Positions 5,210 to 33,992 of a stretch of 36,646 bases of DNA are shown here, one piece after another. A program made the position numbers and the translations under genes. The stretch's first letter is position 1, and each line of letters starts with the position of its first letter. Below the pieces are notes generated by a model. The model did no database searches, was not told where the DNA came from, and worked only from the letters and a program-made list of their open reading frames with translations. This DNA comes from Myxococcales bacterium (GTDB taxonomy: Bacteria; Myxococcota_A; Polyangia; GCA-2747355). The stretch spans positions 1-36,646 of the forward strand of contig JAGQIK010000079.1 in NCBI GenBank assembly GCA_020431405.1. Reading direction: 5' to 3'.

Positions 5210-10777
<5,568 letters not shown>

Positions 10778-10789
10778 GGACGTCGTGCC

Positions 10790-13700
10790 TCAAGGCGCGC
10801 TGAGCTCCGAGCAGCGATGGCCGAGCGGCGGCCCACGCACGAGAGACTGCGTGCCGATCCAGACGTGCTTGCTGTGACGCCACACGCGCCGCAGCAGCTC
10901 GCAGTGCGGACGCATCAGCGGGGCGAGGTCGATCGAGCGCTGGCCGCCGAGCTCGCTGACCGCGATCAGCCGGCGCTGATGCTGCCATAGCGCGACGATG
11001 GCGCCGTGAAGGTGGTAGCGCGAGACGACGCGGCGGCGCTGCAGGTCGAAGATCAGTACCTCGCCGTTGGCCGTCCCCGCGGCGACCATCGCCGGCACCG
11101 ACCCTGCGAGCCCGCGTAGCGCGAGCAGCTCGGTCACGGGCAGGCGCGCGCTGAATGTCACGAGACGCTTGAGGGTCCCGTCGCGCTGGATCTCGGCCAG
11201 CCACTGCATCGACGCCGAGCGGGTACGGCTCAGCACGGCGAGCATGCGCTCGCCGTCCACGGCCATGGCCGTTACGTCCGCGCGCGTGTCGAGCGACAGC
11301 AGCTGGCTGCCCGCCTGGTCGTGAATGAAGAGGCGATTGATCTGTCGGCGCCAGATGCGCTCGCTGCCGAGCGCGCCGCCGTCGAGGCCGCGGCCGAGAT
11401 CGATCGCCTCTTTCGCGCCGACGCGCCAGTAGCGCACGCCGCGCCGCGAGACGGCGCCGCAGTGTGCCGTGCCGCGCACGAACACGCGGTGGTAGGGCAG
11501 CGGGTTGATCAGCTCGTGCGTGCGTGTCTTGCCGGTGCGCATGTCGCGGATGGTCGTGGAGCCGCCAGACTTCTCTCCGGGCAGGCGCACGCGACCGAGC
11601 AGCTTGTCCGCGCGCGTGTCCCATAGCTCGAGCCAGCGCGCGCGCGTCAGCAGGCAGACGCGCTCGTCGCGCTCGTCGGCGAGAAAGGCCGCCTTGGCGA
11701 CACGATCGAGCCAGCGCTTCTTGCCGGCCGCGATCGGTCTGCGCGTGCCGTCGAGCGCGTTGACTTCGGAGTCGAGCGTGTAGAAGCGTGCCGAACGACG
11801 CGAGACGAGCAGCACGTGCCACGGCGAGCGTCCGCTATCGACGTCCCAGTAGCGGATCGAATAGTCGCGCCCCGCGGTGGCGATGACGCTGCCGTCGAGC
11901 GCGAAGCTGCCGTTGTAGAGACCGAAGCGGTGACCGCGCAGCGGGCGTCGGCTGCGCCGCTCGATGTCGAAGACCTCGATGGTGGCGCCAAAACCGGAGG
12001 CCGCCGTCATGCTGCGCAGGAAGCGCCGACCGCCGGCAGCGATCAGCTCGCTCACGGGGGGCAGCCCGAAGGAGGGCATCGAAAAGAGCCACGCCTTGCG
12101 CTTGCCTTGGAGGTCGACGCGAGCGAACTGGCCCATGCGGTTGAACACGATCAGCTCGTCACCGTCTCCCAACCAGCGTGCCGAGGCGGTGCCATCTTCG
12201 GGCGTGATGTCGACGAGCTTCTTGCCGCTCTCTACCTCGAAAACCGCCGCGCGTCCGTCCATCTGCCTGAGTCCGAAGCCAGCCACCAACAGGCGCTTGT
12301 CGTCGGCCGAAAAGTCGAGGCTCGTGATGCGGGTCGCCAGGCGCATGGTGCGCAGCTGCTTGCTCTTGCCGGGTCCGCGCGCGCGCCACAGCGCGACCAG
12401 GCCATCCTGCGACGCGCTGGCTAGCGTGCGGCCATCATGCGAGTAGGCGAGGGCGTAGACCGACCGCGCGTGTCCGGTGCCGAGGAATTTCCGCTCGTGT
12501 CCGCTGTCTGCGTTGTCGACGACGACGCTGCCGTCGGAGCGTCCTTCGGCGAGCTGGTCACCTTGCGGGTTGAACGCCAGCGCCGTCGGGTAGGCGTGCT
12601 TGTAGGTGAGCCGCTGCACCTCGGCGCCCGTGCGCGCGTCCCATAGACGCAGGGTCGCGTCGCGCCCGGCGCTGGCGACGAGCTTCTTGTCTGGTCTCAC
12701 AGCGAGCGCGGTGATCAGACCGGTGTGGCCGCTGTCGAGGCGCGGCGGCTCCGCCGCAGCGTCCCACAGCACGAGGCGGCCTCCGCGGTCAGTGCTGACC
12801 AGGCGCTTTCCGCCGGCGGCGAAGGCGACCGCGGTGATCAGCTCGCTGTGTCCCGACAAGCGGCGCAACATGCGGCGCTGCTGCACGTCCCAGATATCGA
12901 CGTCGCCGAGCTTGTTGCCGAGCGCGAGGCGATGTCCGCTGGGGTCGAAGTCGAGCGCCGCGGCGTTGGTGCGTACGTGCAAAAGCTCGTTGCGCCCGTC
13001 GATGCCGACAATGCGCACCTGCTGTTGCATGCCGGCGATAGCGGTCAGCGAGCCGTTGGCGCTGATCTTTCCGGGGTAGCCCCAGCGCGTTAGCTCGTGG
13101 CGCCAGATGGCCTGCGGCACGCCCAGATCGAACGCCTCGAGCATGTAGCGCATCTGCTGACCACGTTTGGGCAGGTGTGATTGGCGTACGAGGCGCACGC
13201 GTTTGTCGATGGCGCGCATGGCGACCGCCTGCTGAACCACGCTCCTGAAGATCTGCTTGCCGGACGTGTCGAAGCACACGACGTCGCTGTATCGCAGCGC
13301 GCAGATGCGTCCGTCGCGGGTAGCGACGATCTGCGCGACCTCGCCCACCAGATTGACCGTGCGTTTGACGCGGCCGCTGTCGAGGTCGATGACCTGCAGC
13401 TGCGATGGGATCTTCCTGCTGCTCTGCTTGCCGCGGCGCTCGCGGTCGTAGACGGCGACGATAATGCTGCGGCCGTCGGCGGCGACGCGCAGCGCGGAGA
13501 CAAACGCTGGTGTGGTCTTGACCTGACGCATGGAGCGGTTGGGGAAATCGACGACGTGCACGAACCCGCGTTGGTCGACGACGGCCGCCGTGTGCCCGGC
13601 GCGGTCGACATCGAGCGTGCGGATGGTAGTGCCAACCTCGGCGGTCCACAGCGCGCCCTTGGCGGCGGCACGCCACCACACGATGCGGGCGCGGCCGGAG

Positions 13701-16700
13701 TCTTGAATTTCGAGCGCCGCGCGCGCCATCGCCCGCGCGTTGCCCGCGTCGCCGCCGAGCAGCGCGCCGTTGCCGGCCTCGGCTAGCGCACGCGCCAGCA
13801 TATCGCGCGCCCGCGCCTCCTTGCGGCTCAGCGAGACGATCCAGGCCGTGGCGACGGCGACGCTGACCACCGAGAGCGCACCGACGAGCAGCGCGATGCT
13901 GCGCCGGCGGCGCTTTCGCCGCCGCTCGTCGGCGAGCCGCTGAGCCTCGCGCTCGCGGATCGCCGCCTCGACGAAGCGCTGCACGATCGACGGCGGCGCA
14001 TCCTGCATGCGGTCGAGCGTCTTGATCGCGTCGTCGAGCGCCTCGTCGCGCCAGACCTCGTCGGGCCGCTCGCCGCGTTTCTCCCAGAGTGTGGCGGCCT
14101 GCTCGATCTCGGCGAGAAACGCGCGCTCCTCGGCGCTCTCGTCGAGCCAGTGGCGAAGTCGCCGCCAGCTGCTGATCAGCGACTCGTGGGCGAGCTCGTA
14201 GTGTGCGGCGCCGCCGCTGTCGAGCTTGCGCACCGAAAGCAGGCGCGACGTGGTCAGGCGCGAGAGCACGCGCTCGGCCTCGTGCTCGTCGAGGCCCTCG
14301 ACCAGCGACTCGCGTGAAGCGCTCCTGCGCGTGCCCTCGGCGCTGACCAGCCGCAGGAGCTGCTGGCGTGCGATCTCGAGCTCGGCCGGAGGCATTCCGG
14401 CGAGCACCGAGTCGGCGTGTGAAGCCAGCGCGCCGGCTACGCCGCCGATGGCGTCGTAGTCAGCGCGGCGCAGGGCACGGTGTTGGCGGTCGCGCCGCTC
14501 CCACAGCGCGCGCGCGGTGAACGACAGCAGCGGCAGGCAGGCGCTGCTGTCCGCGACCTCGGCCACCATCTCGGCCGGCAGCTTGGCGTCGTCGTAGCGG
14601 TAGTTGAAGACGTCGAGCGGGCGCGTGACGATCGTCTCGAGGGCGCTCGCGTCGGGGCTGCGCAACACGACGATGCTCGAGAGCACCTGGCGCGCCGCGC
14701 TGCTCTCGACGAGCTTGCCGAGGAAGTCATCGCGCAGCGTGAAGACGAGCCGCACCGGCTCCTCGGCGTCGTCGGCGGCGCTCGCCAGCGCGCGCATGAA
14801 GCGAGCGCGTGTCTCGGCGTCGGGCGTGAGCGCGACGAGCTCTTCGAGTTGGTCGACGACGAGCAGCACGCGGGTGCTGCTCGCTTCGGCGAGGCGCTGC
14901 AAGAGCAGTGCGAGGCGCTCGGGCGTCTCGTAGAGCTCGCGCGCGAGCGCTTCGTCGTCCTTGGCGAGCCCCGAGATCAGCTGTTGGCTGGGTGAGGCTG
15001 CCGCGTCCGGCTGCGACGTGTCTTCGCTGCCGCTCTCGGCATCGGGGACGGCGCCGATGCTGCCCGCGCCGAAGCTAGCCTGCATGCTGCGCGAGCGTTC
15101 ACCGTGGCGCAGCCGGCTGGCCAGCGCCTCGAAGGGCGTGTTGCCGGGGCGCAGCGTCAACACCAGCCAGCGCCCCTGCTCGCGCAGGCGCGGCACGACG
15201 CCGGCCTGCACGAAGCTCGACTTGCCCGCGCCCGACGGGCCGACGATGGCGAGCGTCGGCTCGTCGCGCAGGCGCTCGAGAAAAGCCGCCACCTCGGGCT
15301 CGCGGCCGAAGTAGACGCCGGCGTGCCGCTCGGAAAAGGACAGCAGCCCGCGAAACGGGCCTTGCTCTTCGGCGAGCTCGACGCCGCCGGCCAGCATCGC
15401 CTCGAGGGCGTCGGCCACGTCGCCGGCGCTGGGGCGATCGGCGGCCTCCTTGTTCATGCAGCGCGCGACGAGCTCGGCAAGCTCGGCGCTGACGTTGGCG
15501 TCGGTTGGCAGGCTCGGCGCGGGGTCTTCGCTGCAGACGAGCACGGGCAGCTCGGTGGCGGCGGCGCGTCCGCGCACGGCGTAGGGCAGCTTGGCGGCGA
15601 GCAGCTCGTAGAGCATCACGCCGAGGGCCCAGATGTCGGTCGGCGAGCGTAGCGTCTCGCCGCGCCACTGCTCGGGCGCCATGTAGGGCGGCGTGCCGCG
15701 CACCATGTCATCGTCGAGGCTGGTGTAGGTGGCGAGGGTCAGGTGCTCGACGGTGTCGCGCGCCTCGTCGGCGCCGTCGAGCGCGGGCTCGGGCGCGAGA
15801 TCGCGCAGTGGCTCCGACGCGAGATCGCGCGCGGGCTCGACGGCGGCTGCCGGAGCCGGCGTGAGCGTCGGTGTGACCGTGCCTGCGGGCCCGGCGGCCT
15901 CGACGGCCTCGACGGCCTCGGGCGCCGACAACGACCTGGGCGGTGCGAAGTGCTCGGGGAGCGCGGGCAGCGCCGCGTCGCCGGTGGCAGCGCTGCGCGC
16001 GATGCGCGGGGCGGGCGGCAGCGAGAGGATGCCGTCGGAGAGGCGCGCCGCCTCGCGCTGGCGCTGCCGCGCGCGCGCGCCGACGTTGCCCGGCGCAGTC
16101 ATGCGGTCGGGCACCGCGTCGCCTACGCCCGCGCCCGTGGAGGCGTCGAGCATGGTCGGCGTCGAGGCGTCGACGTTGTCGGCGCCGGCGCGCTGTGACG
16201 GCGTGGCGATGGTGTTGGCCATCGCGCCGGCCGCGCCCAGCGAGCCGTCGACACGGATCGGCTTGATGGCCGGCTGCGACGCCTCCGTGCCGGTGGTCTC
16301 GTCGCGGCCGCTGATCTTTTTCGCCAGGCCGAAGTCGAGCACGCGCACGCGGCCGTCGCGCGGGATCAACACGTTCTCGGGTTTCAGATCGCGGTGCAGG
16401 ATCGAGCGCTGGTGCGCCTCCTCGAGCGCGCGCGCGATCACCGACCCCACGCGCAGCACCTCGCGCGTGGTTAGCCGCCGCTCCTTCATGCGCTGTCTGA
16501 GCGTTTGGCCCTCGAGATACTCGAGCGCCACGTAGGGCATGCCCTCGTGCTCGCCGACGGCGTAGACGGTGACGATGTTGGGGTGGTTGAAGCGCGCCGT
16601 GGCGCGCACCTCGAACAGGAAGCGCTCCACCGCCTCGCCCGAGCCGACGTGCCGCGGGTGGATCACCTTGAGCGCGACGCGGCGGCCGAGCTTGACGTCG

Positions 16701-16807
16701 CGCGCGAGGTAGACCTCGCCGAAGCCGCCCTCGGCGAGCAGGCGCACCACGCGAAAGTGGTCGACGCGAGCGCCCGGCTCGAGGACTTTGCGCGACGCGC
16801 TGCTCAT
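10790..16807 (-). CDS. Giant Ser/Thr kinase - nSTAND - TM - WD40 receptor-like protein (copy A)
   Basis: 2005 aa, paralogous to copy B over its whole length. Kinase domain ~18-470: glycine loop AEGGFGEV (25-32), Lys47, HRDLKPEN (138-145), DFG (158-160), APE (377-379). About 210 residues of Ala/Pro-rich, low-complexity sequence (162-370) are inserted between DFG and GTPPYMAPEQW. The nSTAND module starts ~483 (GPFRGLLSFSERHAGVYFGRE), with Walker A GPSGAGKSS (523-531) and Walker B LLVVDQLEEL (648-657). A run of arginines precedes a membrane helix at ~971-993. WD40-type repeats fill the rest, clearest at HSELITAVAFAAGGKRLVS, HTGLITALAVRPDKKLVAS and HARSVYALAYSHDGRTLAS. STAND NTPases usually act as ligand-triggered oligomerisation switches, so WD40 ligand binding could control kinase clustering; that is inference. 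The start lacks a Shine-Dalgarno and has TAGACT 6 nt upstream. It is divergent from hsp20. Confidence 0.9.
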   Translation of the reverse strand: MSSASRKVLEPGARVDHFRVVRLLAEGGFGEVYLARDVKLGRRVALKVIHPRHVGSGEAVERFLFEVRATARFNHPNIVTVYAVGEHEGMPYVALEYLEGQTLRQRMKERRLTTREVLRVGSVIARALEEAHQRSILHRDLKPENVLIPRDGRVRVLDFGLAKKISGRDETTGTEASQPAIKPIRVDGSLGAAGAMANTIATPSQRAGADNVDASTPTMLDASTGAGVGDAVPDRMTAPGNVGARARQRQREAARLSDGILSLPPAPRIARSAATGDAALPALPEHFAPPRSLSAPEAVEAVEAAGPAGTVTPTLTPAPAAAVEPARDLASEPLRDLAPEPALDGADEARDTVEHLTLATYTSLDDDMVRGTPPYMAPEQWRGETLRSPTDIWALGVMLYELLAAKLPYAVRGRAAATELPVLVCSEDPAPSLPTDANVSAELAELVARCMNKEAADRPSAGDVADALEAMLAGGVELAEEQGPFRGLLSFSERHAGVYFGREPEVAAFLERLRDEPTLAIVGPSGAGKSSFVQAGVVPRLREQGRWLVLTLRPGNTPFEALASRLRHGERSRSMQASFGAGSIGAVPDAESGSEDTSQPDAAASPSQQLISGLAKDDEALARELYETPERLALLLQRLAEASSTRVLLVVDQLEELVALTPDAETRARFMRALASAADDAEEPVRLVFTLRDDFLGKLVESSAARQVLSSIVVLRSPDASALETIVTRPLDVFNYRYDDAKLPAEMVAEVADSSACLPLLSFTARALWERRDRQHRALRRADYDAIGGVAGALASHADSVLAGMPPAELEIARQQLLRLVSAEGTRRSASRESLVEGLDEHEAERVLSRLTTSRLLSVRKLDSGGAAHYELAHESLISSWRRLRHWLDESAEERAFLAEIEQAATLWEKRGERPDEVWRDEALDDAIKTLDRMQDAPPSIVQRFVEAAIREREAQRLADERRRKRRRRSIALLVGALSVVSVAVATAWIVSLSRKEARARDMLARALAEAGNGALLGGDAGNARAMARAALEIQDSGRARIVWWRAAAKGALWTAEVGTTIRTLDVDRAGHTAAVVDQRGFVHVVDFPNRSMRQVKTTPAFVSALRVAADGRSIIVAVYDRERRGKQSSRKIPSQLQVIDLDSGRVKRTVNLVGEVAQIVATRDGRICALRYSDVVCFDTSGKQIFRSVVQQAVAMRAIDKRVRLVRQSHLPKRGQQMRYMLEAFDLGVPQAIWRHELTRWGYPGKISANGSLTAIAGMQQQVRIVGIDGRNELLHVRTNAAALDFDPSGHRLALGNKLGDVDIWDVQQRRMLRRLSGHSELITAVAFAAGGKRLVSTDRGGRLVLWDAAAEPPRLDSGHTGLITALAVRPDKKLVASAGRDATLRLWDARTGAEVQRLTYKHAYPTALAFNPQGDQLAEGRSDGSVVVDNADSGHERKFLGTGHARSVYALAYSHDGRTLASASQDGLVALWRARGPGKSKQLRTMRLATRITSLDFSADDKRLLVAGFGLRQMDGRAAVFEVESGKKLVDITPEDGTASARWLGDGDELIVFNRMGQFARVDLQGKRKAWLFSMPSFGLPPVSELIAAGGRRFLRSMTAASGFGATIEVFDIERRSRRPLRGHRFGLYNGSFALDGSVIATAGRDYSIRYWDVDSGRSPWHVLLVSRRSARFYTLDSEVNALDGTRRPIAAGKKRWLDRVAKAAFLADERDERVCLLTRARWLELWDTRADKLLGRVRLPGEKSGGSTTIRDMRTGKTRTHELINPLPYHRVFVRGTAHCGAVSRRGVRYWRVGAKEAIDLGRGLDGGALGSERIWRRQINRLFIHDQAGSQLLSLDTRADVTAMAVDGERMLAVLSRTRSASMQWLAEIQRDGTLKRLVTFSARLPVTELLALRGLAGSVPAMVAAGTANGEVLIFDLQRRRVVSRYHLHGAIVALWQHQRRLIAVSELGGQRSIDLAPLMRPHCELLRRVWRHSKHVWIGTQSLVRGPPLGHRCSELSAP

Positions 16808-17694: not shown

Positions 17695-19905
<2,211 letters not shown>

Positions 19906-19967: not shown

Positions 19968-20825
19968 ATGACACAGCGAGCGCAGGCGAGGCTCGCGGCC
20001 ACGGTGCTGGTGGCGCGCGATGGCGAGGGCGGTCCCGAGATCTTCATGGTCCGCCGTCATCACAAGAACAAGTTCATGGCCAACGCCACCGTCTTCGTCG
20101 GCGGCCGCGTCGACGACGCCGACGCCGATGCGTCACTGTGGGGTGAGCGCTCCGGGATGAGCCCCCAGCAGGCGGCCGAGCGTATCGGCGTCGCGGGCGT
20201 CGAGCAGGCGCGCGCGATCTATACGGCCGCGATCCGCGAGACGTTCGAGGAGTCGGGCGTGCTGCTGGCGTTCGACGCGGCGGGTGATCTCGTCGGCCCC
20301 GAGGGGTTGGCGGCGCTGCGCGACCAGCTCAACGCCGACGAGGTGCCGCACTTCGGCGCGCTGCTCGGCGACGCGCGCTTCGCGGCGTTTTCCGAGCTGC
20401 GCTACCTGGCGCGCTGGGTCACGCCCGAGATCGAGCCGCGGCGCTACGACACGTACTTTTTCGTGTGCCGCATGCCGCCGGAGCAGACGGCGAGCTACGA
20501 CCAGCGCGAGACGACGGCCGGCGACTGGTACCGGCCGGAGGAACTTCTGGCGGCCAACGCCCGTAAGGAGGTGCTGCTGGCGCCGCCGACGCTGTCCGTG
20601 CTCGAAGATCTGGCCGGCTCGCGCGATGTCGCCGAGCTGCTCGGTCGCGCGAGCGACGCGCCGACAGCGCCGGTGATGCCGCGGCCCTGGATGTCCGCTA
20701 GCGCCAAGGCACTGACACTGCTAATGCCTGACGACCATCGATACAACGACCCCAACAGCAGCAGCGGTCGCGAACACTATGCCGTCCTGCAAGACGGCTA
20801 CTGGCAGAGGATAAGAAATGGCTAG
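19968..20825 (+). CDS. Nudix hydrolase, NUDT19/RP2p-like with interrupted Nudix box
   Basis: The 285-aa protein belongs to the Nudix superfamily, which hydrolyses nucleoside diphosphates linked to another group. The N-terminus has LAATVLVARDGEGGPEIFMVRR, then VGGRVDD (44-50). The catalytic RETFEESG (90-97) follows only after ~40 residues, instead of the ~13 in a standard Nudix box. An insertion of this kind is characteristic of the NUDT19/RP2p group (CoA or acyl-CoA diphosphatases), so a CoA-type substrate is plausible but not shown. ATG 19968 was chosen over in-frame upstream starts (19947, 19884) because the match begins there; the ribosome-binding site is weak. Its last 8 bases overlap tldD, indicating translational coupling in a three-gene operon. 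Confidence 0.8.
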   Translation: MTQRAQARLAATVLVARDGEGGPEIFMVRRHHKNKFMANATVFVGGRVDDADADASLWGERSGMSPQQAAERIGVAGVEQARAIYTAAIRETFEESGVLLAFDAAGDLVGPEGLAALRDQLNADEVPHFGALLGDARFAAFSELRYLARWVTPEIEPRRYDTYFFVCRMPPEQTASYDQRETTAGDWYRPEELLAANARKEVLLAPPTLSVLEDLAGSRDVAELLGRASDAPTAPVMPRPWMSASAKALTLLMPDDHRYNDPNSSSGREHYAVLQDGYWQRIRNG

Positions 20826-22392
20826 CTCGAAAGACCTGACTCGACGAGAGCTCCTCGCCGCCGGCGCCGCCGCTTCGGGCGCGCTGCTACTGCCCGTGAT
20901 GTCTGGCTGCAGCAAGCCGGCCACGGGGGTCAACGATCCACGTGCCGCCGCGCTGACGGTGTCGAAAGCCTTCGAGGCGTTCGGCGTCAGCGAGGCGCGC
21001 GTGCGCAAGGTGATGGCGCGCGCGCTGCAGCACGGCGGCGACTTCTGCGACCTCTACTTCCACCGCCGCCGCATCAACTGGATCGGCCTCGAGGACCACG
21101 CCGTCAACCGCGCCTCGACGCGCGCCGACATCGGCCTCGGCGTGCGCGTGGTGCGCGGCGTCGAGACCGGCTACGCCTACACCGAGAGCCTCGACGAGGC
21201 CTCGATGCTGGCGGCCGCCGGCGTGGCGGCGACGGTGGCGCAGGGCGGCGGCAGCACGGCGCGCGCGCCCAACGCGTTTCGCGTGGGCAAGCACCCGTCG
21301 TACTACCCGGTGAAGGTGCCGTGGCCGGGCGTTTCGACCAAGGACAAGGCGGCGCTGCTGAGCAAGCTCGAGAAGCTCGTGCTCGAGCGCGACAAGCGCA
21401 TTCGCAAGGTCAACGTCAGCTACCGCGACGAAGACCACCAGATCTTGATCATCGATTCGACGGGGCGCGTGTTTGCCGACAGCCAGCCGATGACGGTGAC
21501 CTACGTCTCGTGCTCGGCCGAGCACAAAGGCAAGCGCGAGTCGAACTACTCGGCGCTCGCCGGGCGCTCGGGCTTCGAGTTCTACACCGAAGCGCGTCTG
21601 CAGAAGGCCGCGCGCGAGGTCGTCGATCGCACCACGGTGCTCTTCGACGCGGTGGGCGGCCCGGTGGGCGAGCTGCCGCTGGTGCTCGGCCCGGGGAGCT
21701 CGGGCATCCTGCTGCACGAGGCGATCGGCCACGGCATGGAGGCCGACTTCGCGCGCAAGCGCACGACGATCTACTCGGACAAGGTCGGCAAGCGCATCGC
21801 ACCCAAGGACGTGACCATCGTCGATGACGGCGTGCGCGAGGGGCTGCGCGGCTCGATCAACCTCGACGACGAGGGCAACCCGAGCAAGCGCACGGTGCTC
21901 GTGGAAAACGGCGTGCTGCGCACGTTCCTGCACGACCGCATCAGCGCCAAGCACTTCGGCGTCGAGCCGACGGGCAGCGGGCGGCGCCAGTCGTTTCGCC
22001 ACATGCCGATCCCGCGCATGCGCAACACGTACATGCTCGCCGGGCCGCACCCGCGCGAGGCGATCATCAAGTCGGTCAAGCGCGGCATCTACGCCGAGCA
22101 CTTCACCAACGGTCAGGTCAACATCGGTCCGGGCGATTTCTCGTTCTACGTCAAGAACGGCATGTTGATCGAAGACGGCAAGCTCACGCAGCCGATCAAG
22201 GACGTCAACATCATCGGCAACGGGCCCAAGGTGCTCGAGGCGGTGGCGATGGTGGGCAACGACTTCAAGCTCGACGAGGGCGGCTGGACCTGCGGCAAGC
22301 GCGGGCAGCGCGTGCCGGTGGGGCTCGGCATGCCCACGGTGAAGATCAACGCCATCACCGTCGGCGGCGCCGGCAAGAAGAAGGCAGGGTGA
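20818..22392 (+). CDS. tldD: TldD-family metalloprotease with Tat lipoprotein signal
   Basis: The 524-aa protein matches the TldD/PmbA (TldD subunit) family, zinc proteases that degrade unfolded peptides and process peptides such as microcin B17 as a TldD-TldE heterodimer. The active-site motif HEAIGH (HExxxH) is at 300-305, and the C-terminal GGWTCGKRGQRVPVGLG is typical of TldD. The N-terminus is unusual: a twin-arginine TRRELL (8-13), a hydrophobic stretch and a lipobox VMSGC with Cys31, indicating Tat export and lipidation. Classical TldD is cytoplasmic. AGAGGA 8 nt before ATG 20818 supports the start that includes this signal. It overlaps the Nudix gene by 8 bp and the tldE-like gene by 4 bp. 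Confidence 0.92.
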   Translation: MASSKDLTRRELLAAGAAASGALLLPVMSGCSKPATGVNDPRAAALTVSKAFEAFGVSEARVRKVMARALQHGGDFCDLYFHRRRINWIGLEDHAVNRASTRADIGLGVRVVRGVETGYAYTESLDEASMLAAAGVAATVAQGGGSTARAPNAFRVGKHPSYYPVKVPWPGVSTKDKAALLSKLEKLVLERDKRIRKVNVSYRDEDHQILIIDSTGRVFADSQPMTVTYVSCSAEHKGKRESNYSALAGRSGFEFYTEARLQKAAREVVDRTTVLFDAVGGPVGELPLVLGPGSSGILLHEAIGHGMEADFARKRTTIYSDKVGKRIAPKDVTIVDDGVREGLRGSINLDDEGNPSKRTVLVENGVLRTFLHDRISAKHFGVEPTGSGRRQSFRHMPIPRMRNTYMLAGPHPREAIIKSVKRGIYAEHFTNGQVNIGPGDFSFYVKNGMLIEDGKLTQPIKDVNIIGNGPKVLEAVAMVGNDFKLDEGGWTCGKRGQRVPVGLGMPTVKINAITVGGAGKKKAG

Positions 22393-23735
22393 CCGCGATG
22401 AAGCTTCTCGACGAGAAAGCCTTGGGCGCGGTGGCCGAGCTGGCCTGCGCGCGCGCCAAGAAGAAGGGCGCCAGCGCAGCGGCGGCGCGCATCGGCGCGA
22501 CCAAGAAGGACCGCATCGTGCTGCGCGACGGCAAGAAGGAAGAGGTCAAGTCCTCCATCGCGCGCAGCCTCACCATCAAGCTCTACGTCGATGGCCGCTA
22601 CGCGAGCCACTCCACCAGCGTGCTCGATGACAAGAAGGCGCTCGAGCGCTTCATCGACGACGCGGTGGAGATGACGCGGCTGTTGGCGGCCGATGCCAAG
22701 CGCCAGCTGCCCGACCCCAAGCACTACGCCGGGCGCAGCAAGAAGGACCTCGGCCTCTACGTCGCCGAGCAGACGACGTTCGCCGGGCGCGTGGCGCGCG
22801 CCAAGGCGGCGCACGACGCGGCGCGCACGGCGGCGGGCGACAAGCTGCTCTCGGTGGGCGCCGGCGCCAGCGACTATGTCGGCTTGACGCTGATGCGCAC
22901 CACCAACGGCTTCGCCGACAGCGAGCGCTCGAGCTCGGCGTGGGTCTGGGCCTCGGTGAGCATCAAGGACCCGTCGGGTCGGCGGCCGAGCGACTGGGAC
23001 CAGGCCGGCGCGCGCGGTAGTGCCGGCCTTTCGGCCGATGCGGCGGCCGCGGTGGGCAAACGCGCAGCCGAGCGCACGCTGGCGACCCTCGGCGCCGACA
23101 AGGCCAAGACGATGACGCTGCCGGTGATCGTCGAAAACCGCGCCGTCGGGCGGCTGCTCTACGGTCTGTTCGCGCCGCTTTCGGGCTGGGCGCTCGACCA
23201 GAAGCGCTCGTGCTTCGAAGACGCCATCGGCAAGGTGATCGCCAGCAGCAAGCTCGACCTGATCGACGATCCGCTGCTCGAGGGCGCCTGGGGCTCGCGG
23301 CGCTTCGACGGTGAAGGCCTCACCGCGCGGCGCCGCCACATCGTGAAGGGCGGCAAGCTCGCCGGCTACTACCTCGACAGTTACTACGCGCGCAAGCTAG
23401 GCAAGGAGCCGACCGGCGGTGGCCGCAGCAACATCGTCTTTTCGCCCGGCGAGGGCACGCTCGACGCGCTGCTGAAAGCCGCCGGCAAGGCGGTGCTGGT
23501 GACGAACTTCCTCGGCGGAAACTCCAACAGCACCACCGGCGATTTCTCGCACGGCATCTCGGGCTTCGTGATCGAAGGCGGCAAGCGCGCGCGACCCATC
23601 GCGTCGATGAACATCGCCGGCAACCACGGCGAGCTGTGGAAGACGCTGACGGGCTGGGGCGCCGACGCCTACGCCTATTCATCGGTGCGCGCGCCGAGCC
23701 TCGTCTTCGCGCCGATGGTGGTCAGCGGCAAGTAA
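22389..23735 (+). CDS. pmbA: TldE/PmbA-family partner subunit
   Basis: The 448-aa product is the TldE/PmbA-type partner of TldD. The family shares the TldD fold but lacks the HExxxH zinc site, as here. The hallmark C-terminal region FLGGNSNSTTGDFSHGISGF is present, as is an IVENRAVGRLL segment near the middle. No signal peptide or membrane helix is visible, in contrast to the exported-looking TldD. The GTG at 22389 overlaps the TldD stop in a GTGA junction, with AAGG just upstream; ATG 22398 is an alternative. The gene converges on the unknown secreted protein gene with 18 bp between stops. Confidence 0.9.
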   Translation: MTAMKLLDEKALGAVAELACARAKKKGASAAAARIGATKKDRIVLRDGKKEEVKSSIARSLTIKLYVDGRYASHSTSVLDDKKALERFIDDAVEMTRLLAADAKRQLPDPKHYAGRSKKDLGLYVAEQTTFAGRVARAKAAHDAARTAAGDKLLSVGAGASDYVGLTLMRTTNGFADSERSSSAWVWASVSIKDPSGRRPSDWDQAGARGSAGLSADAAAAVGKRAAERTLATLGADKAKTMTLPVIVENRAVGRLLYGLFAPLSGWALDQKRSCFEDAIGKVIASSKLDLIDDPLLEGAWGSRRFDGEGLTARRRHIVKGGKLAGYYLDSYYARKLGKEPTGGGRSNIVFSPGEGTLDALLKAAGKAVLVTNFLGGNSNSTTGDFSHGISGFVIEGGKRARPIASMNIAGNHGELWKTLTGWGADAYAYSSVRAPSLVFAPMVVSGK

Positions 23736-26351: not shown

Positions 26352-27965
26352 CTAGAGCAGCACGCCGGGGTTGAGGATGCCCTGCGGATCGAGCGCGGCC
26401 TTGGCGGCGCGCAGCGCGTCGGCGAACAGCTCGGGGCGCTGTTTCTCGTAGTAGGGCTTGTGCAGGCGGCCGACGGCGTGGTGGTGCGTGATCGTGCCGC
26501 CGGCCGAGACGACGGCTTCGCCGGCGGCTTGCTTGGCCGCACGCCAGACGTCGAGCTGGGCGCCTTCGGGCGCCGGCGCGACGAAGGTGTAGTAGGGCGC
26601 CGGGCCGTCGGGATAGACGTGGGTGAAGCGGCACATCACGAAGCCGCCGCCGGCGACCTCGCCGAGGGCTTTGCCCACCGCGCGCGTGACGTGCTCGTGA
26701 AAGTCGGCGAAGCGGTCCCAGGTGATCGCTGTCTCGAAGGTGTCGGCGACGACGCCGATGGCGACGGCGGTGTTGAGCAGGTATGGCGCGCGCAGGAACG
26801 TCTCGCGCCAGGCCTTGGCGGCGGCGCCGTCCTCTTCGCGCGCGGCGCCCTGCGCGCCCTCGGCGATCTCGACGCGGCCGCCGTGCGCGCGCGCGATCTC
26901 GACGGCGCGCGCGAGCAGCGGCGCGACGTCGTGGTCGGCCGACTCGAAGGCCAGCAGCAGCACCGAGCTGCCGTCTTTGGAGGCGCGCGAGGCGAAGGCT
27001 TCGCCGCCGTCGAGCAGCCGGCAGTTGGCCGGGTAGAGCCCGGACTGCGCCACGGCGCGCGTGGCCTCGACGGCGTCGTCGAAGCGCGTGAAGGCCGCCG
27101 AGGCCTTGGCGCGAAAGCGCGGGCGCGCCTGCAAGCGCATCCACGCCTCGGTGATGATGCCGAGGGTGCCCTCGCTGCCGATGAACATGCGGTCCGGCGA
27201 CGGGCCGGCGCCCGAGCCGGGCAGCCGCCGCGTCTCGAGCGTGCCGCGCGGCGTGACGACGCGCAGCGACTCGACGAAGTCGTCGATGTGCGTGTGCAGC
27301 GTGGCGAAGTGGCCGCCGGCGCGCGTGGCGATCCAGCCGCCGAGGCTCGACAGCTCGAACGACTGCGGGAAGTGGCGCAGCGTCAGGTCGTGCGGGCGCA
27401 GCGCGTCTTCGAGCGCGGGGCCGAGGATGCCGGCCTGGATGCGCGCGGCGCGCGAGCGCTGATCGACCTCGAGCAGCCGATCGAAGGCGCCGAGATCGAT
27501 ACACATGGCGCCCGCGTACGCGTCGCCGACATCGGCCTCGACGCCGCCGACGACGCTGCTGCCGCCGCCGTAGGGGATCGCCGCCACGCGCTGGTCGCTG
27601 CACCACTCGAGCAGCGCGAGCAGCTCGCGCTCGTCGCGCGGGCGGGCGACGAGGTCGGGCGGGTGCGGGTAGTCGCCGCAAAAGCCGCGCAGCACGTCGG
27701 CGAAGCTGCGGCCGTAGGCGTGCGCGGCGCGATCGCGGCGCTCGGCGCTGACCAGCGCGGCGAGCTCGGCGTTCGCGGGGGCGGCGATGCGCGGGGCGGG
27801 GAAGTCGACCTCGTCGAGCGGCCGCGGGGTGCGCGCTTTGACCTCGTCGGCGCGGCGGCCGAGGATCGGGCCGAAGCGTTTGACGGTGCGCGCGATCTCG
27901 TCGGCCGTGGGCTGGGCGTCCTCGAAACCCCAGCCCCAGTAGGAGCGCACCCGCGCGCCGCTCAT
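26352..27965 (-). CDS. FAD-linked alkyldihydroxyacetonephosphate synthase-like enzyme (AGPS type)
   Basis: The 537-aa enzyme belongs to the vanillyl-alcohol-oxidase/PCMH FAD family and matches AGPS, which swaps the acyl chain of acyl-DHAP for a fatty alcohol, the ether-bond step in ether-lipid synthesis. Diagnostic parts: YWGWGFED near the N-terminus (9-16), YGRSFADVLRG (84-94), the FAD-binding PYGGGSSVVGG (131-141), FIGSEGTLGIITEAW (261-275), RFTHVYPDG (446-454) and the AGPS-type HHHAVGR (494-500). The ATG at 27965 overlaps the stop of the upstream PHP lipoprotein gene as ATGA, giving translational coupling. The same frame stays open far upstream but that part is a shadow of the PHP gene. 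A D-lactate dehydrogenase-like oxidase is less likely given the HHH motif. Confidence 0.88.
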   Translation of the reverse strand: MSGARVRSYWGWGFEDAQPTADEIARTVKRFGPILGRRADEVKARTPRPLDEVDFPAPRIAAPANAELAALVSAERRDRAAHAYGRSFADVLRGFCGDYPHPPDLVARPRDERELLALLEWCSDQRVAAIPYGGGSSVVGGVEADVGDAYAGAMCIDLGAFDRLLEVDQRSRAARIQAGILGPALEDALRPHDLTLRHFPQSFELSSLGGWIATRAGGHFATLHTHIDDFVESLRVVTPRGTLETRRLPGSGAGPSPDRMFIGSEGTLGIITEAWMRLQARPRFRAKASAAFTRFDDAVEATRAVAQSGLYPANCRLLDGGEAFASRASKDGSSVLLLAFESADHDVAPLLARAVEIARAHGGRVEIAEGAQGAAREEDGAAAKAWRETFLRAPYLLNTAVAIGVVADTFETAITWDRFADFHEHVTRAVGKALGEVAGGGFVMCRFTHVYPDGPAPYYTFVAPAPEGAQLDVWRAAKQAAGEAVVSAGGTITHHHAVGRLHKPYYEKQRPELFADALRAAKAALDPQGILNPGVLL

Positions 27966-30900
27966 CGCGAGCGCAGGTAGCGCAGCTTCTGCAGCGCGCG
28001 CTGGATGTCCGAGCGCTTGAGCTTTCCGGCGCGCAGCAGCTGCAGCAGCTGGCGGCTGTCGCGGCGCAGGCGCCCGAGGCCGATGCGGTGATCGTGCGTC
28101 GACGACGATGCGGCCGCGTTGGCCGAACCACCCGCGCTCGCCGACTGCGAGGCGCGCTGCGGCTGCGTCAGCGCGCTGGTCTTGATGCCGGCGCGCGCGC
28201 GGTCTTTGGCCGTGGCCCAGCTCGGCATCTTGGCGAGCGGCGTGATCGCGCCGTCGCCGTCGGTGTCGACCCAGATCGGGTTGGTGATGGCATAGGGCCT
28301 GATGAGGCTGATCGTCGGCGAGAACGGCGTGCGCAGCGAGCGCAGCGGCGGCAGAAGCGGCGTGAGGCGCTGGATCAGCTCGAAGATGCCGAGGCGCGCC
28401 ACCGGCGTCGACGAGTAGACCGGTGCCAGCGACTTGCCGTCGACGCCCATCGCGATGACGACGTACCAGGCGTCGCGCGTCGGCGTGTCGCTGAAGGTCG
28501 CCTCGTAGTTGAGCACCTTGTCGTTGGGCAGCTTGATGCAGTCGTCGGCGCCCGCGGCGCAGTCGGTCTTGCCGCTGACGATCTTGATCAGCTCGCCGTT
28601 GCGGTAGATCTCGAGGCGGTCGACGTCGAACCACAGCGGCGAGCGCACGCGCACCGTCAGGTTGACGGGCTGGTTCTTGGGCGAGCTGACGGTCTGGCCG
28701 ATGCCCTTGTCGTTGATCGAAAACTCGACGAACGGCCCGGTGGTGGCGAAGACCTCGCCGGCCTTGACCGTCGCCGCGACGGCGGCGGACTGGATCTGGC
28801 CCGGGATGTCGCTCGACGAGCGCACGTAGTTGCGCGGCAGGCCGGCCTCGCCGCCGTAGACGTCGTGGCTGTCGGAGTTGCCGAGCACGGTGCGGTGCAC
28901 GCCGCGGTTGAGCATCTGGAACCAGTCGTCGACGGTGCCGCGCACGGTGGGGCACGGATCGTTGTCGCTGACCGCCGGCGCCACCGGTTTCTGGCAGCGC
29001 TTGTCGATGCAGCTGCCGCGCAGCGGGTCGCCCGTGCAGTCGAGGTCCTTGGCGCAGGGGATCTCGCAGGTGCGCTCGTTGGGCTTGCTCGTGTCGGTGG
29101 CGATGCAGGCCTCGGGGCGGCCGGCCCAGACCTGCTGGCACTGCGCGGTGCGATCGCAGCTGGGCGCCACGCGCTGGCAGAGCCTGCGATTGGCGTCGCC
29201 GTCGACGGGCAGACACTTTTCGCGGCCCGCCGGCGTGAGCAGCTTGTCGCAGCCCGCGTCGCTCTTGCAGCTGCGCAGGCAGCTTCCGACCTTGAGGTCG
29301 CAGACAAAACCGTCGCCGCAGTCGACGTCGGCGGTGCAGCGGCACTCGAAGGCCTTGTTGGTGTAGTTGATGGCGAGCTTCTGCTCGTCGGGCGTGCGGA
29401 TCATGTACTGGCGCTGCGCTGCCTTCGACAGCACCGCCCAGTCGGCGAGGCGGTCGGCGTAGGGGCGCGACGTGTCGCCGAGGATGCGCGTCAGCTCGAC
29501 GTTGTAGTCGCGCACTTCCTTCCAGGTCGGCCGGCGCAGGATGTCGAAGTTCTTGCCGTTGATCGCCTCGAGCGCGTCGTGCTCGGCGGAGAACTTGGCC
29601 GGCGTGAGCACGCGGTTGAGCAGGCCGTTGATCGAAAAGCCCGGCAGCTCGAGCGACCACGGGTCGACGTCGTAGAACGCGAAGTGGTCGTAGAAGTGGG
29701 CCACCGCCGTGACGGTGTTTTCCGGCCCGAAGCGCCCGCGCTCGCGCAGGTTGTCGAAGATGACCTTGGGCGGCACGTTTTCCCAGTCGTTGACCGGCGG
29801 CTTGGGCAGCACGCCGGCGCCTTTACCCTCGCGCCAGTGAAAGCCGCCGTTGAGCTCGGCGCGCTCGTCGAAGCGCAGCGGAAAGCCGAGGAAGTGGCCG
29901 TAGTCGAGCGGCGAGACCTCGAGGCCGACCTGGCTCTTGATCCACGGGCGCAGCCCGAGGTTGAAGATCGTCGGCCCGTAGTCGGTGAGCTGGTCGTGGT
30001 CGCTGGAGCTCATCAGCTCGATGCCTTCGGCGGCGTAGCTGACGACGCGATCGTCGAAGGCGAGGCCGGAGTCGACGCTGTTGGGGCCGTGGATGTGAAA
30101 GTCGGCCGAGATCCAGCCCGGCGTCTCGATCACCCGGCGAAGCTGAAAGATCTGCCGCGTGGCGAAGCCCGGGCGCAGCGTGACGTAGGCCTTGTGGATG
30201 CTGTACTCCATGCCGCGCGAAGCGATGATCTGGTAGGTGCCGGGCGGCAGCCGGGTCTCGCCGTTGCCGCTGCGGCTGAGGACGGTGCGCACGGTGTTGT
30301 CGGCGAAGCGCGAGCCGCCGAGCTCGAGCGGCAGACGCGCCGCCAGCGAGCAGCTGCACGTCTTTCCGTCCCAGCTCTGGTCGGGGCGGCACTCGCCGGC
30401 GTCCTTGTAGCTGCCGTCCTTGTTGGGCACGCACAGCTGGGACTTGGCCTCGCAGAAGGGGCGCCCCGAGACCTTTGCGCAGTCTTCGTCGCGGGCGCAC
30501 TCGGGGAAGCAGACGCCGATGGTGAGCTTGCTCGGCAGCGAGCGGCCTGCCTCGTCGCGCACGTTGAACTGCAGAAACCCGGCCTCGCGCGTGACGACGC
30601 TGGTGCGTGTGGTCTGGCCGGCGGCGATGGTGACGGGCACCAGCCGCGAGGCGGGGACCTTGTTGTCGCGCGCCACCAGCAGGTAGCGGCCCGGAGGCAG
30701 CGGCCCCGCGATGCTGCCGTCACGCACCACGTCGTCGGCGCCGACGTCGCTGCGGAAGTGCGAGACCACGCCGGGCTCGCCGAGCGGCACTTCGCTGCTC
30801 TTGGAGCTGTCGATGTTGAGCGCCACCAGCTCGTCGTAGCGCTTGGCGGCAAGCTCCGCGTCGCCGAGCTGGCTCCAGGCGTCGGGCACGCGGAAGGCGA

Positions 30901-32152
30901 AGACGTTCATACCGCTGACCGGCTCGCGGCGCCGCGCGTCGATGACGTGGCCTTCGAGGGTGCCCGTCTCGATGCCGCGCTGGCGGTAGTAGCCGGCGAG
31001 CGCCGAGGCGATGTCGCCTTTGCCTACCGAGACGAAGCGCTGGTAGCGCAGCTCTTTGCCTTCGAAGCACTTGGGGTCGTTCTTGGCGCAGGCGGCGGTG
31101 TTGGTGAGCGAGACGGTGAAGGCGCCGGCGAAGACGGGGATCATCGTCTTGCCCGCGGCGAAGTAGACGTAGGAGATGTCGTCGCCGACGGCGGCGACGT
31201 AGTCGAGCGAAAGCGGCGCCGAGAAGATGTCGCCGCCCGAGTCGAACACGCTGCGGATATACGTCTCGTGGTCGAAGCCGCTGCCGGGGATGAAGACGGC
31301 GACCTTGCCCGAGAAGAGCATGAAGTCGCCAGCGATGACGCCGGCGGTTTTCTGGCCGGGCTCGCGGCAGCGCTTCATCTCGGTCTTGAGCGTACCCACC
31401 GAGAGGTTGATCAGCAGGTCGACGCACTCCGAGCCTGCTGGGCAGAGCGCGGGATCGGGCGCGCAGTCGATGCCGCCGGCGGCGGTCTCGCCGACCAGCG
31501 CGTCGAGCAGGCTGGTCTGCTTGGTCAGCCCGGGCAGCACTTGCGGCTCGCCCTTGCCGAAGAAGCGCACCGTGGTGTTGGTGCGCACGATCTGCTCGCC
31601 AGGACAGAGGTCGTAGTCGGCGACGAGCTCGAGCTTGGTGGTGTCGAAGCTCTGCTTCTGGATCGCGAAGTCGAGCAGCCCGAGCACGCCCATGATGTCT
31701 TCGCCGGGGCCGCTCGCCGTGACGCGCGCGCAGTCGAGCGTCTGGCCGTCGCGGTCGGTGGGGCAGGGCGCCACGCCGACGGCGCCGCAGCGGCCGTGCT
31801 CCATCTTGATCGCCGTGTTGACCTTGAGGTTGAGCATCGAGCTCAGCTCGTAGAACGCGTCGCGGCCGCGGCCGTTGCGGAAGCGCCGCTGCGGGCGCTG
31901 CAGGTCGACGTCGACGAGGCTGCCGTTGGCGATGGGGAACGTGCTGCGCTGGTTGTGCCGACCGTGCACGATGGCGCGCAGGCGATCGTTCTGCAGCAGA
32001 AAGTCGCCCGGGCGGCCGGCGGCGGCGGGCCCGCCGATGGTCTCGGCCATCGACTCGATGATCTTCACCGAGGCGAACGGCGACGTCTCTTCGCTGCAGC
32101 CTGCAGCCGCCATCGCGAGCAGCGCGAGGGTCGCTAGAGTTCTAGACGTCAT
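27962..32152 (-). CDS. Large lipoprotein with PHP-type (CehA/McbA-like) metallohydrolase domain and Cys-rich inserts
   Basis: 1396 aa. The lipoprotein signal MTSRTLATLALLAMAAAGC places Cys19 first in the mature protein. Residues ~25-395 are an uncharacterised beta-rich region. A carboxypeptidase-regulatory-like fold starts at ~397 (GTLEGHVIDARRREPVSGM). A Cys cluster lies at 548-601. The PHP/CehA-McbA metallohydrolase domain begins at ~679: DFHIHG (His686, His688), SSSDHD (715-720), GLEVSPLDYGHF (743-754) and, after a long gap, GNSDSHDVYGG (1091-1101). A second Cys-rich segment (937-1067) with repeated DxDCxxGxxC-like knots is inserted within this domain. Near the C-terminus DTDGDG suggests a calcium loop. 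It is probably an exported metal-dependent hydrolase acting on phosphoesters or carbamate-like bonds; the substrate is unknown. It starts 14 bp after the porin gene. Confidence 0.82.
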   Translation of the reverse strand: MTSRTLATLALLAMAAAGCSEETSPFASVKIIESMAETIGGPAAAGRPGDFLLQNDRLRAIVHGRHNQRSTFPIANGSLVDVDLQRPQRRFRNGRGRDAFYELSSMLNLKVNTAIKMEHGRCGAVGVAPCPTDRDGQTLDCARVTASGPGEDIMGVLGLLDFAIQKQSFDTTKLELVADYDLCPGEQIVRTNTTVRFFGKGEPQVLPGLTKQTSLLDALVGETAAGGIDCAPDPALCPAGSECVDLLINLSVGTLKTEMKRCREPGQKTAGVIAGDFMLFSGKVAVFIPGSGFDHETYIRSVFDSGGDIFSAPLSLDYVAAVGDDISYVYFAAGKTMIPVFAGAFTVSLTNTAACAKNDPKCFEGKELRYQRFVSVGKGDIASALAGYYRQRGIETGTLEGHVIDARRREPVSGMNVFAFRVPDAWSQLGDAELAAKRYDELVALNIDSSKSSEVPLGEPGVVSHFRSDVGADDVVRDGSIAGPLPPGRYLLVARDNKVPASRLVPVTIAAGQTTRTSVVTREAGFLQFNVRDEAGRSLPSKLTIGVCFPECARDEDCAKVSGRPFCEAKSQLCVPNKDGSYKDAGECRPDQSWDGKTCSCSLAARLPLELGGSRFADNTVRTVLSRSGNGETRLPPGTYQIIASRGMEYSIHKAYVTLRPGFATRQIFQLRRVIETPGWISADFHIHGPNSVDSGLAFDDRVVSYAAEGIELMSSSDHDQLTDYGPTIFNLGLRPWIKSQVGLEVSPLDYGHFLGFPLRFDERAELNGGFHWREGKGAGVLPKPPVNDWENVPPKVIFDNLRERGRFGPENTVTAVAHFYDHFAFYDVDPWSLELPGFSINGLLNRVLTPAKFSAEHDALEAINGKNFDILRRPTWKEVRDYNVELTRILGDTSRPYADRLADWAVLSKAAQRQYMIRTPDEQKLAINYTNKAFECRCTADVDCGDGFVCDLKVGSCLRSCKSDAGCDKLLTPAGREKCLPVDGDANRRLCQRVAPSCDRTAQCQQVWAGRPEACIATDTSKPNERTCEIPCAKDLDCTGDPLRGSCIDKRCQKPVAPAVSDNDPCPTVRGTVDDWFQMLNRGVHRTVLGNSDSHDVYGGEAGLPRNYVRSSSDIPGQIQSAAVAATVKAGEVFATTGPFVEFSINDKGIGQTVSSPKNQPVNLTVRVRSPLWFDVDRLEIYRNGELIKIVSGKTDCAAGADDCIKLPNDKVLNYEATFSDTPTRDAWYVVIAMGVDGKSLAPVYSSTPVARLGIFELIQRLTPLLPPLRSLRTPFSPTISLIRPYAITNPIWVDTDGDGAITPLAKMPSWATAKDRARAGIKTSALTQPQRASQSASAGGSANAAASSSTHDHRIGLGRLRRDSRQLLQLLRAGKLKRSDIQRALQKLRYLRSR

Positions 32153-32166
32153 GACGCGTATCAAGC

Positions 32167-33585
32167 CTAGAACATCGCCTGCAGCTGGGCGAAGACGATG
32201 TCGTTTTTGATCTCGGCGCCCTCGAGCTCGTCGCGGCGCATGTACATGCCCTGCAGCTTGAAGCGGTTGCGGCACAGGTAGACGTTGACGCCACCGCTGA
32301 TGAGCTGCTGGCGGCCCGCGGTGAGCACGGCGTTGTTGTCGCGGAAGTACTCGTAGCGGCCGGCGACCTCGACGTGCTCGCTCCAGACGAAGACCGACAG
32401 CTGCCCCGCTACGCCCCAGGTGGTGGCGTCGCCGGCGTCGGGATCGCCGCCGGGCTCGGCGTCAGGCGTCGAGCGACGCCACAGAAACTCGCCGAACAGG
32501 CGCGTGCGGAAGGCCTGCGCGGCGAGATTGAACGCCGCGCGGTGCGACGTGGTGGACTGGCCGTTTTCGTAGACGTAGGCGGCGGCGACCTGGATGCGCA
32601 GCTTGGTCGGCACGAACTCGCGCGGCGCGCCGAGCAGGTCGTACTTGAGGCGGATCGCGCCGGCGAGCCCCGCGAGGCGGTTGCCCGAGGTGATGCCGTC
32701 GGTGCCGTTGTAGACGCCGGCAGCGTAGCCGAGATCGCCGAGCTGGCCGTAGACGCGCACGCCCACGCGGCGGTTGGGCGAGATCACGTTGACCATGAAG
32801 GGGCGATCGATGAGCGTCAGCCGTCCCGACGAGCGCAGCGCGTAGCCCGAGAAGGGCATGCGGTCGACGCCGGCGGCGATCTGCAGGAACGAGAAGCGAT
32901 TCCACGAGACGGTGGCGTCGAGGATCTCCGAGCCCACGCTGCCGCCGGTGGCGGCGGTGACGGCGTCCTTGAGATCGAGCGCCAGGTAGAACTTCACGTC
33001 GGGCAAGAGCTGTCCGGAGAAGCCGAGCCGCGCGCGGCGCACGCGGAAGCCTTCGGTGTCGGCGAAGTCGCCGTCCTGCAGGGCCGAGTCGTTGCCGACC
33101 CAGATCGCGGCCTGCGTCTGGATCAGGCCGCCCATGTAGAGACGAAACGATCCGCGCCGCACCAGCGGCACGCGCGCCGAGATGTCCTGGCGCCAGCTGC
33201 GCCGCGCCGAGCGGTCAGCGTCGTCGTCGTCGTCGGGGCTGCTGTTGGACGGGTGCGCCGCCGCGGCGCTGGCCTTGGGCTCGTCGCTGCTCTTGGCGGC
33301 GCCGGTGGCCGTCTTGCTGTCGCTCGGCGGCGCGGCCTTTTTCGCGGGCGCCGTCTCGCTTTTCTTCGCCGGCTGACTCGCCGGCGCGGCCGCGGCCGCC
33401 GCGGGCGCCGCTTGCGCGGAGTCAGCGGCCGCGGGTCGCGGCGCCGATCGTCGGGCCGCACCGCCTCTGCCGCCAGAGCGCGACTGCACCGGTTCGTCGT
33501 CTTTTCGTTCTTTGGTCTGGGCGGCGGCAGGGAAAGCGAGCGCTAGGCACACTGACGCTGCGAGCAAGTAGGCAGCACGAGCCAC
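32167..33585 (-). CDS. Outer-membrane porin, OprP/OprO (phosphate-selective porin) type
   Basis: The 472-aa protein has a Sec signal (1-22, cleavage near AAA|QT), then a long low-complexity Ala/Pro/Lys and Asp-rich linker (~24-130), then a beta-barrel of alternating residues from ~145 (FRLYMGGLIQTQAAIWVG) to the C-terminal Phe (AQLQAMF), the usual outer-membrane assembly signal. Segments FRVRRARLGFSGQLLPDVKFYLALDL and LQIAAGVDRMPFSG resemble the porin O/P family, which forms anion-selective channels for phosphate or polyphosphate. The selectivity here is unproven. The GTG at 33585 has AGAGG ~10 nt upstream. It is the first gene of an operon with the PHP lipoprotein and the AGPS-like enzyme. 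The linker could span the peptidoglycan. Confidence 0.83.
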   Translation of the reverse strand: MARAAYLLAASVCLALAFPAAAQTKERKDDEPVQSRSGGRGGAARRSAPRPAAADSAQAAPAAAAAAPASQPAKKSETAPAKKAAPPSDSKTATGAAKSSDEPKASAAAAHPSNSSPDDDDDADRSARRSWRQDISARVPLVRRGSFRLYMGGLIQTQAAIWVGNDSALQDGDFADTEGFRVRRARLGFSGQLLPDVKFYLALDLKDAVTAATGGSVGSEILDATVSWNRFSFLQIAAGVDRMPFSGYALRSSGRLTLIDRPFMVNVISPNRRVGVRVYGQLGDLGYAAGVYNGTDGITSGNRLAGLAGAIRLKYDLLGAPREFVPTKLRIQVAAAYVYENGQSTTSHRAAFNLAAQAFRTRLFGEFLWRRSTPDAEPGGDPDAGDATTWGVAGQLSVFVWSEHVEVAGRYEYFRDNNAVLTAGRQQLISGGVNVYLCRNRFKLQGMYMRRDELEGAEIKNDIVFAQLQAMF

Positions 33586-33695: not shown

Positions 33696-33992
33696 ATGCT
33701 TCGTTCGATGTGCGCGCTGGCGGTGCTAGGCCTCGCCGCGCTGGGCGGTCCAGGCTGCGACAGCGCGCCCTGTATGGAGGCCGCCGACAAGATCCAGAGC
33801 TGCATCGATCAGCTCGACTGCCGCGACGCCGATCCGACCGACTTCGCACGCTGCAACACGGCGAGGACCAAGGGACAGGACGCGCTCAACCAGCTGCGCT
33901 CGGCGCCCTGTGCGCTCGACGTGAAGAATATCGCCGAGCAGATCAACAACTGCCCCATCTCTCAGGTCGAGTTCTGCAACTGCGTCTCGTGA
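33696..33992 (+). CDS. Small Cys-rich lipoprotein
   Basis: The 98-aa product has a signal peptide ending in a GGPGC lipobox (Cys21). The 78-residue mature part has eight further cysteines (26, 36, 42, 53, 72, 86, 94, 96), enough for four disulfides, and is mainly helical (EAADKIQSCIDQL, FARCNTARTKGQDALNQL). No family is recognised. AGGAGG upstream of ATG 33696 supports the start. It is divergent from the porin operon, sharing a 110-bp region, and converges on the next small lipoprotein gene. Confidence 0.7.
   Translation: MLRSMCALAVLGLAALGGPGCDSAPCMEAADKIQSCIDQLDCRDADPTDFARCNTARTKGQDALNQLRSAPCALDVKNIAEQINNCPISQVEFCNCVS

Follow-up and report, generated by a model that had tools for sequence, protein, structure and literature searches.

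A Porin_O_P-family outer-membrane channel and a giant exported hydrolase of the CehA/McbA type form an old, widely shared pair, an instance of which lies in the DNA analyzed here (36,646 nucleotides of contig JAGQIK010000079.1 from a Myxococcales bacterium; hereafter, the window). In the window, the pair is followed by a gene for an AGPS-like flavoenzyme, and the tie of this enzyme to the pair rests on one genome. With moderate confidence, the locus is best read as a capture-and-cleave module made up of the channel and a lipoprotein hydrolase, to which an interchangeable accessory gene is added.

The original prediction had described three close-set genes coding for an OprP/O-like channel, a CehA/McbA-type hydrolase and an AGPS-like enzyme. 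Their coordinates and spacing were confirmed, and domain searches bore out all three assignments. The features of the locus are as follows.

32167..33585, minus strand: porin gene, GTG start, 472 amino acids, Porin_O_P-family outer-membrane channel
27962..32152, minus strand: hydrolase gene, ATG start, 1396 amino acids, CehA/McbA-type exported lipoprotein, PHP fold expected
26352..27965, minus strand: AGPS-like gene, ATG start, 537 amino acids, FAD enzyme, cytoplasmic (by eye, no signal peptide)
27962..27965, minus strand: ATGA shared by the end of the hydrolase gene and the beginning of the AGPS-like gene, read from the sequence
33696..33992, plus strand: gene for a small Cys-containing lipoprotein, 98 amino acids, divergent from the porin gene

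Fourteen bases lie between the porin stop and the hydrolase start in the sequence, and the three adjacent genes are probably cotranscribed. A promoter scan found none; below the operon, a weak, terminator-like hairpin of five pairs is present (26259-26247), in a region that has nine such sites where 4.4 are expected. The divergent small lipoprotein has a counterpart at the same place in genome G001 (L149:6630-6869; 41% identity), and a small Cys-containing lipoprotein, matched by position only, is found there in G003 (L148:14409-14777). Elsewhere in the window, the minus strand carries two tandem giants (5210-10777 and 10790-16807; 1855 and 2005 amino acids), each composed of a protein kinase, an nSTAND1 NTPase and WD40 repeats, as well as a fusion of a cyclic-nucleotide-binding domain and an aspartase/fumarase-type lyase that ends in FumaraseC (553-2460), possibly a ligand-controlled lyase. 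Adjacent genes on the plus strand (20818-23735) code for a PmbA/TldD-type metallopeptidase pair.

Searches for the hydrolase covered 59 genomes (58 relatives and the window's own), then 144 of the class and then 188 of the phylum; at E 1e-60 or better, it was present in 7 of the 144 and 8 of the 188, the own genome being counted in both. The surroundings of 18 full or almost full hydrolase loci from relatives were extracted, and genes were called with a codon-usage caller, by which gene starts, and hence gap lengths, are approximate. The immediate upstream neighbor of the hydrolase was a same-strand porin gene in all 16 loci with that side on the contig (L175 and L178 were left out of this count because their contigs end too soon upstream), at gaps of −1 to 245 bp and across eight families (f1, f2, f6, f7, f15, f29, f33 and f55). 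When the window porin was used as phmmer query, all 16 upstream porins were matched (1.4e-121 to 6.2e-21), a single-query search independent of the porin profile, which was built partly from loci that it scored. All nine of the 16 that were run against Pfam exceeded the Porin_O_P cut-off. The adjacency of porin and hydrolase is far beyond chance. The claim that the gene set spans the envelope is supported, as is a link of channel and exported hydrolase, which is a lasting one among assessable relatives.

The window porin matched Pfam Porin_O_P at residues 169-304 (2e-20; 73.8 bits with a cut-off of 20.9). Its architecture consists of a signal peptide (by eye), ∼110 low-complexity residues and then the barrel. 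A profile made from 13 such porins matched OprP (2e-4) and OprO (5e-4) weakly. The phosphate site of OprP is formed by K30, R34, R59, R60, K74 and K121; in a hand reading of a partial alignment, the window porin retains R59, R60 and K74 and not K30, R34 and K121, the K121 position being occupied by Ala and that of K30 by Tyr.

The hydrolase has the N-terminus MTSRTLATLALLAMAAAGC, in which a lipobox was recognized by eye; its Cys is followed by Ser. Serine following the lipoprotein cysteine leads to sorting to the outer membrane, where the protein is probably anchored, as judged from this motif. It matched NCBIfam CehA_McbA_metalo (NF038032) in two stretches (112.4 bits; cut-off 80). Whole-length alignment held for nine hydrolases, the window's included, and 12 His, Asp and Glu residues were invariant in a wider set of 19 (window included, some partial): H686, H688, D694, D718, H719, D720, E745, H753, H819, E862, D1094 and H1096. 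The landmarks of the catalytic region are as follows.

30089..30097, minus strand: H686-x-H688, predicted first metal-binding pair, both His invariant in 19/19
29993..30001, minus strand: D718-H719-D720 motif, invariant in 19/19
28952..29338, minus strand: Cys-rich insert from C939 to C1067 within the catalytic region, from alignments
28865..28873, minus strand: D1094-S-H1096, predicted last metal-binding pair, Asp and His invariant in 19/19

This 12-residue pattern is that of a PHP-type metal site; because it is intact, the hydrolase is very probably an active enzyme. The Pfam PHP model gave a weak match in only two of the nine hydrolases, and a search of the PDB with the hydrolase profile gave a single weak match, to a PHP phosphoesterase (E 0.039); the predicted PHP fold is based on this match, the NCBIfam hit and the residue pattern. 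For the N-terminal 550 residues, Pfam and PDB searches returned no match, and a single-sequence model of residues 600-1330 was unusable (mean pLDDT 34). In the Cys-rich insert, 12 cysteines were invariant in the nine-row alignment, of which C939, C945, C951 and C958 aligned in just 10 to 13 of the 19 hydrolases of the wider set; a Dickkopf_N-like match to the insert was obtained for three of the nine.

Does the pair scavenge phosphorus, the porin taking up phosphoesters and the PHP-type hydrolase freeing phosphate from them? The weak homology to OprP and OprO and the occurrence of phosphoesterases among PHP folds (the weak PDB match) point in this direction, as does a Ser/Thr protein kinase in the window that is fused to a phosphonate-binding periplasmic-type domain (17695-19905, minus strand; PF12974, 5.6e-52), possibly a sensor kinase for a phosphorus compound. 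However, Pho-box-like sites did not exceed chance (one match, away from the porin, versus 1.11 expected), and the replacement of K121 and K30 of OprP by Ala and Tyr in the hand reading does not favor a phosphate channel. Furthermore, the characterized enzymes CehA and McbA cleave carbamate esters, according to PMC8292978. We consider phosphorus scavenging unlikely.

The gene-neighborhood survey proposed with the original prediction did not find the trio to be conserved, an outcome that the prediction itself had named as speaking against it: within four genes of the hydrolase (fewer where the contig ends), an AGPS-like gene was present at 0 of the relatives' 18 loci. Adjacency of hydrolase and AGPS-like genes was seen in the window genome only; a conserved three-gene operon was rejected, and the trio as a pathway is not supported. 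The gene downstream of the hydrolase coded for an SSF sodium/solute symporter in L176 and L178, which fits an uptake module. In L148 it was a weak Porin_O_P barrel under the cut-off, in L151, L153, L154 and L155 a hydrophobic, multi-helix-looking protein (that of L155 had no match in a Pfam search), in L152 a protein kinase, in L177 a small PHP-like protein (weak match), and in L181-L184 a gene of other kinds; in L149, L150, L175, L179 and L180 it had the opposite orientation. We read the gene that follows the hydrolase as an exchangeable accessory, differing between lineages, that may handle the product. Smaller proteins with a weak PHP match were observed behind the giant hydrolase twice, as a second protein together with the symporter (L176:9374-12797) and alone (L177:10821-12293).

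The AGPS-like protein of the window contains FAD_binding_4 (1.6e-31) and FAD-oxidase_C (4.7e-43) according to Pfam, and its best solved relatives are the AGPS of Dictyostelium and of guinea pig. In a structural model, it aligned to AGPS over the full length (VIA Z 35, 516 residues), starting from residue 4 and including the AGPS-type N-terminal segment, whereas D-lactate dehydrogenases aligned only from about residue 58. Function as a D-2-hydroxyacid dehydrogenase was considered and rejected, given lower scores against such enzymes and retention of the AGPS Tyr. In a figure legend, a review (PMC3509576) names three residues of Dictyostelium ADPS that matter for catalysis: R352, R447 and Y508. 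The window enzyme keeps the equivalents of R352 (R316) and Y508 (Y458) as well as the His triplet; in place of R447 it has Leu:

26775..26777, minus strand: L397, aligned with R447, the catalytic Arg in Dictyostelium ADPS

Arg was absent from this position in all eight rows of the subclade to which the window enzyme belongs (L, A, M, I, Q, Q, Q, Q), and a search for a compensating Arg or Lys yielded two gains, at positions 24 and 240. In the tree (40 of 104 AGPS rows), the window enzyme fell, within this subclade (support 98/98), into a separate clade of 28 rows (100/100); guinea pig and Dictyostelium grouped with L140 and L141 (support 97/88) from two related genomes (G013 and G021), which are 48% identical to guinea-pig AGPS, and all four rows of this group keep the Arg. 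In the wider AGPS-like clade, Arg was kept in 61 of 92 rows and missing in 31, so some members may make ether bonds, as judged by this residue. (The 104- and 92-row counts exclude L157-L164, which repeat L128-L132, L134, L136 and L137; the AGPS set also excludes L001-L047 and includes the partial L138.) When the window's own genome (95.7% complete) was searched with L140, the best match was the window protein itself, at 27%, from which a closer AGPS seems to be absent; the window protein is a poor candidate for AGPS. Another AGPS/GlcD-like gene of this genome (L156, contig C529, 2257-6277) has two further genes close behind, and the FAD query matched one of these as well; by position, this group looks like a glycolate-oxidase-type operon.

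In the original prediction, a scavenged phosphorylated or ester-linked compound would be cleaved outside, and its product would pass via AGPS into ether-lipid synthesis. Despite the AGPS-specific full-length fold, the retained Arg316, Tyr458 and His triplet, and the fact that an AGPS is reported in M. xanthus (PMC9131029), this is the least likely of the readings named here, and a highly unlikely one: the trio is missing from 18 of 18 relatives, the enzyme sits apart from eukaryotic and G013/G021 AGPS, its second catalytic Arg is gone, and the search of the genome with L140 found no closer AGPS. An ether-lipid operon was rejected, and the AGPS-like enzyme probably makes no ether lipids.

A serious rival, and a distinct possibility, is that the AGPS-like gene is a neutral neighbor, which came to lie behind the pair and shares its transcript and not its pathway. 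Records titled Binatota, Actinomycetota, Chloroflexota, Bacillota and others contain homologues 52-62% identical to the window enzyme, and 11 of the 58 relatives, counted from rows with E 1e-90 or lower, have homologues with 48-60% identity. They reside in unrelated places: neither porin nor hydrolase was detected at E 1e-5 near any of 80 such loci (flanks of up to 10 kb, often less), and when a common neighbor of the clade was sought, the largest neighbor cluster reached 21 of 88 loci. Moreover, G008 carries an AGPS-like gene and the hydrolase on different contigs. The four-base stop-start overlap in the window, which suggests translational coupling, argues against mere neighborhood.

In the capture-and-cleave reading that we prefer, the OprP/O-like porin would admit an ester or phosphoester, which is small and probably polar or anionic, and deliver it to the giant lipoprotein, which would hydrolyze it at the envelope by means of the PHP-type metal site predicted from its sequence. 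The product would be handled in some lineages by the third gene, in that of the window by the AGPS-family flavoenzyme; because its second catalytic Arg is lost, this enzyme would most likely act, via flavin chemistry, on a substrate other than acyl-DHAP. The stronger proposal, that porin and PHP-type lipoprotein constitute an undescribed capture-and-cleave system, widespread in the phylum, with exchangeable third genes, one of them an AGPS-fold recruit for flavin-based ether or carbon-oxygen exchange on a different substrate, is a speculative one that we would not expect to hold. Among open-licence papers, none was found on the pairing of a porin with a PHP hydrolase.

The fixed porin partner is a strong clue to a role in nutrient uptake for a family characterized in pesticide degradation. 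The AGPS-like clade matters for a different reason. According to the methods of PMC11868695, ether-lipid producers were surveyed by at least 30% identity and E <1e-30 to the M. xanthus protein; surveys of AGPS homology with criteria of this type may count as ether-lipid makers a separate clade in which the catalytic Arg is missing from about a third of the rows (31 of 92).

Compared with known systems, the window enzyme has in common with peroxisomal AGPS/ADPS and MXAN_1676 the full-length fold, the N-terminal segment and the equivalents of Arg352, Tyr508 and the His triplet; it differs in belonging to a separate clade and in having Leu for Arg447. It is 29% identical to guinea-pig AGPS in the aligned part, whereas MXAN_1676 is ∼42% identical to human AGPS and adjoins an acyl reductase/acyltransferase gene, as given in PMC9131029. 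There, ElbD is described as the main and MXAN_1676 as a minor contributor to M. xanthus ether lipids. One of the two ether-lipid operons of M. xanthus (elb and MXAN_1676-1674) includes an AGPS, as does the window operon an AGPS-like gene, but the latter lacks equivalents of everything else encoded in the two (acyl reductase, acyltransferase, epimerase). With OprP and OprO, the phosphate and diphosphate porins of Pseudomonas, the window porin shares the Porin_O_P family and, in the hand reading, the Arg pair R59/R60; in contrast, similarity is weak and confined to the first third, the central Lys121 is not retained in that reading, and the genetic partner is a CehA/McbA-type hydrolase. CehA and McbA themselves, which hydrolyze carbaryl and carbofuran, resemble the window hydrolase in the NCBIfam domain, in export and in a predicted metal site of the HxH and DxH type. 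Four catalytic histidines are reported for CehA (PMC8292978); within the set of 19 window-type hydrolases, HxH, DHD, H753, H819 and DSH are kept throughout. Unlike CehA and McbA, the window-type hydrolase is a lipoprotein of ∼1200-1500 amino acids with a conserved N-terminal region, a Cys-rich insert and a fixed porin partner. A parallel to the pair is provided by Sphingomonas CDS-1, in which a TonB-dependent receptor is encoded upstream of cehA (PMC8292978), so that there, too, outer-membrane uptake stands beside a CehA hydrolase.
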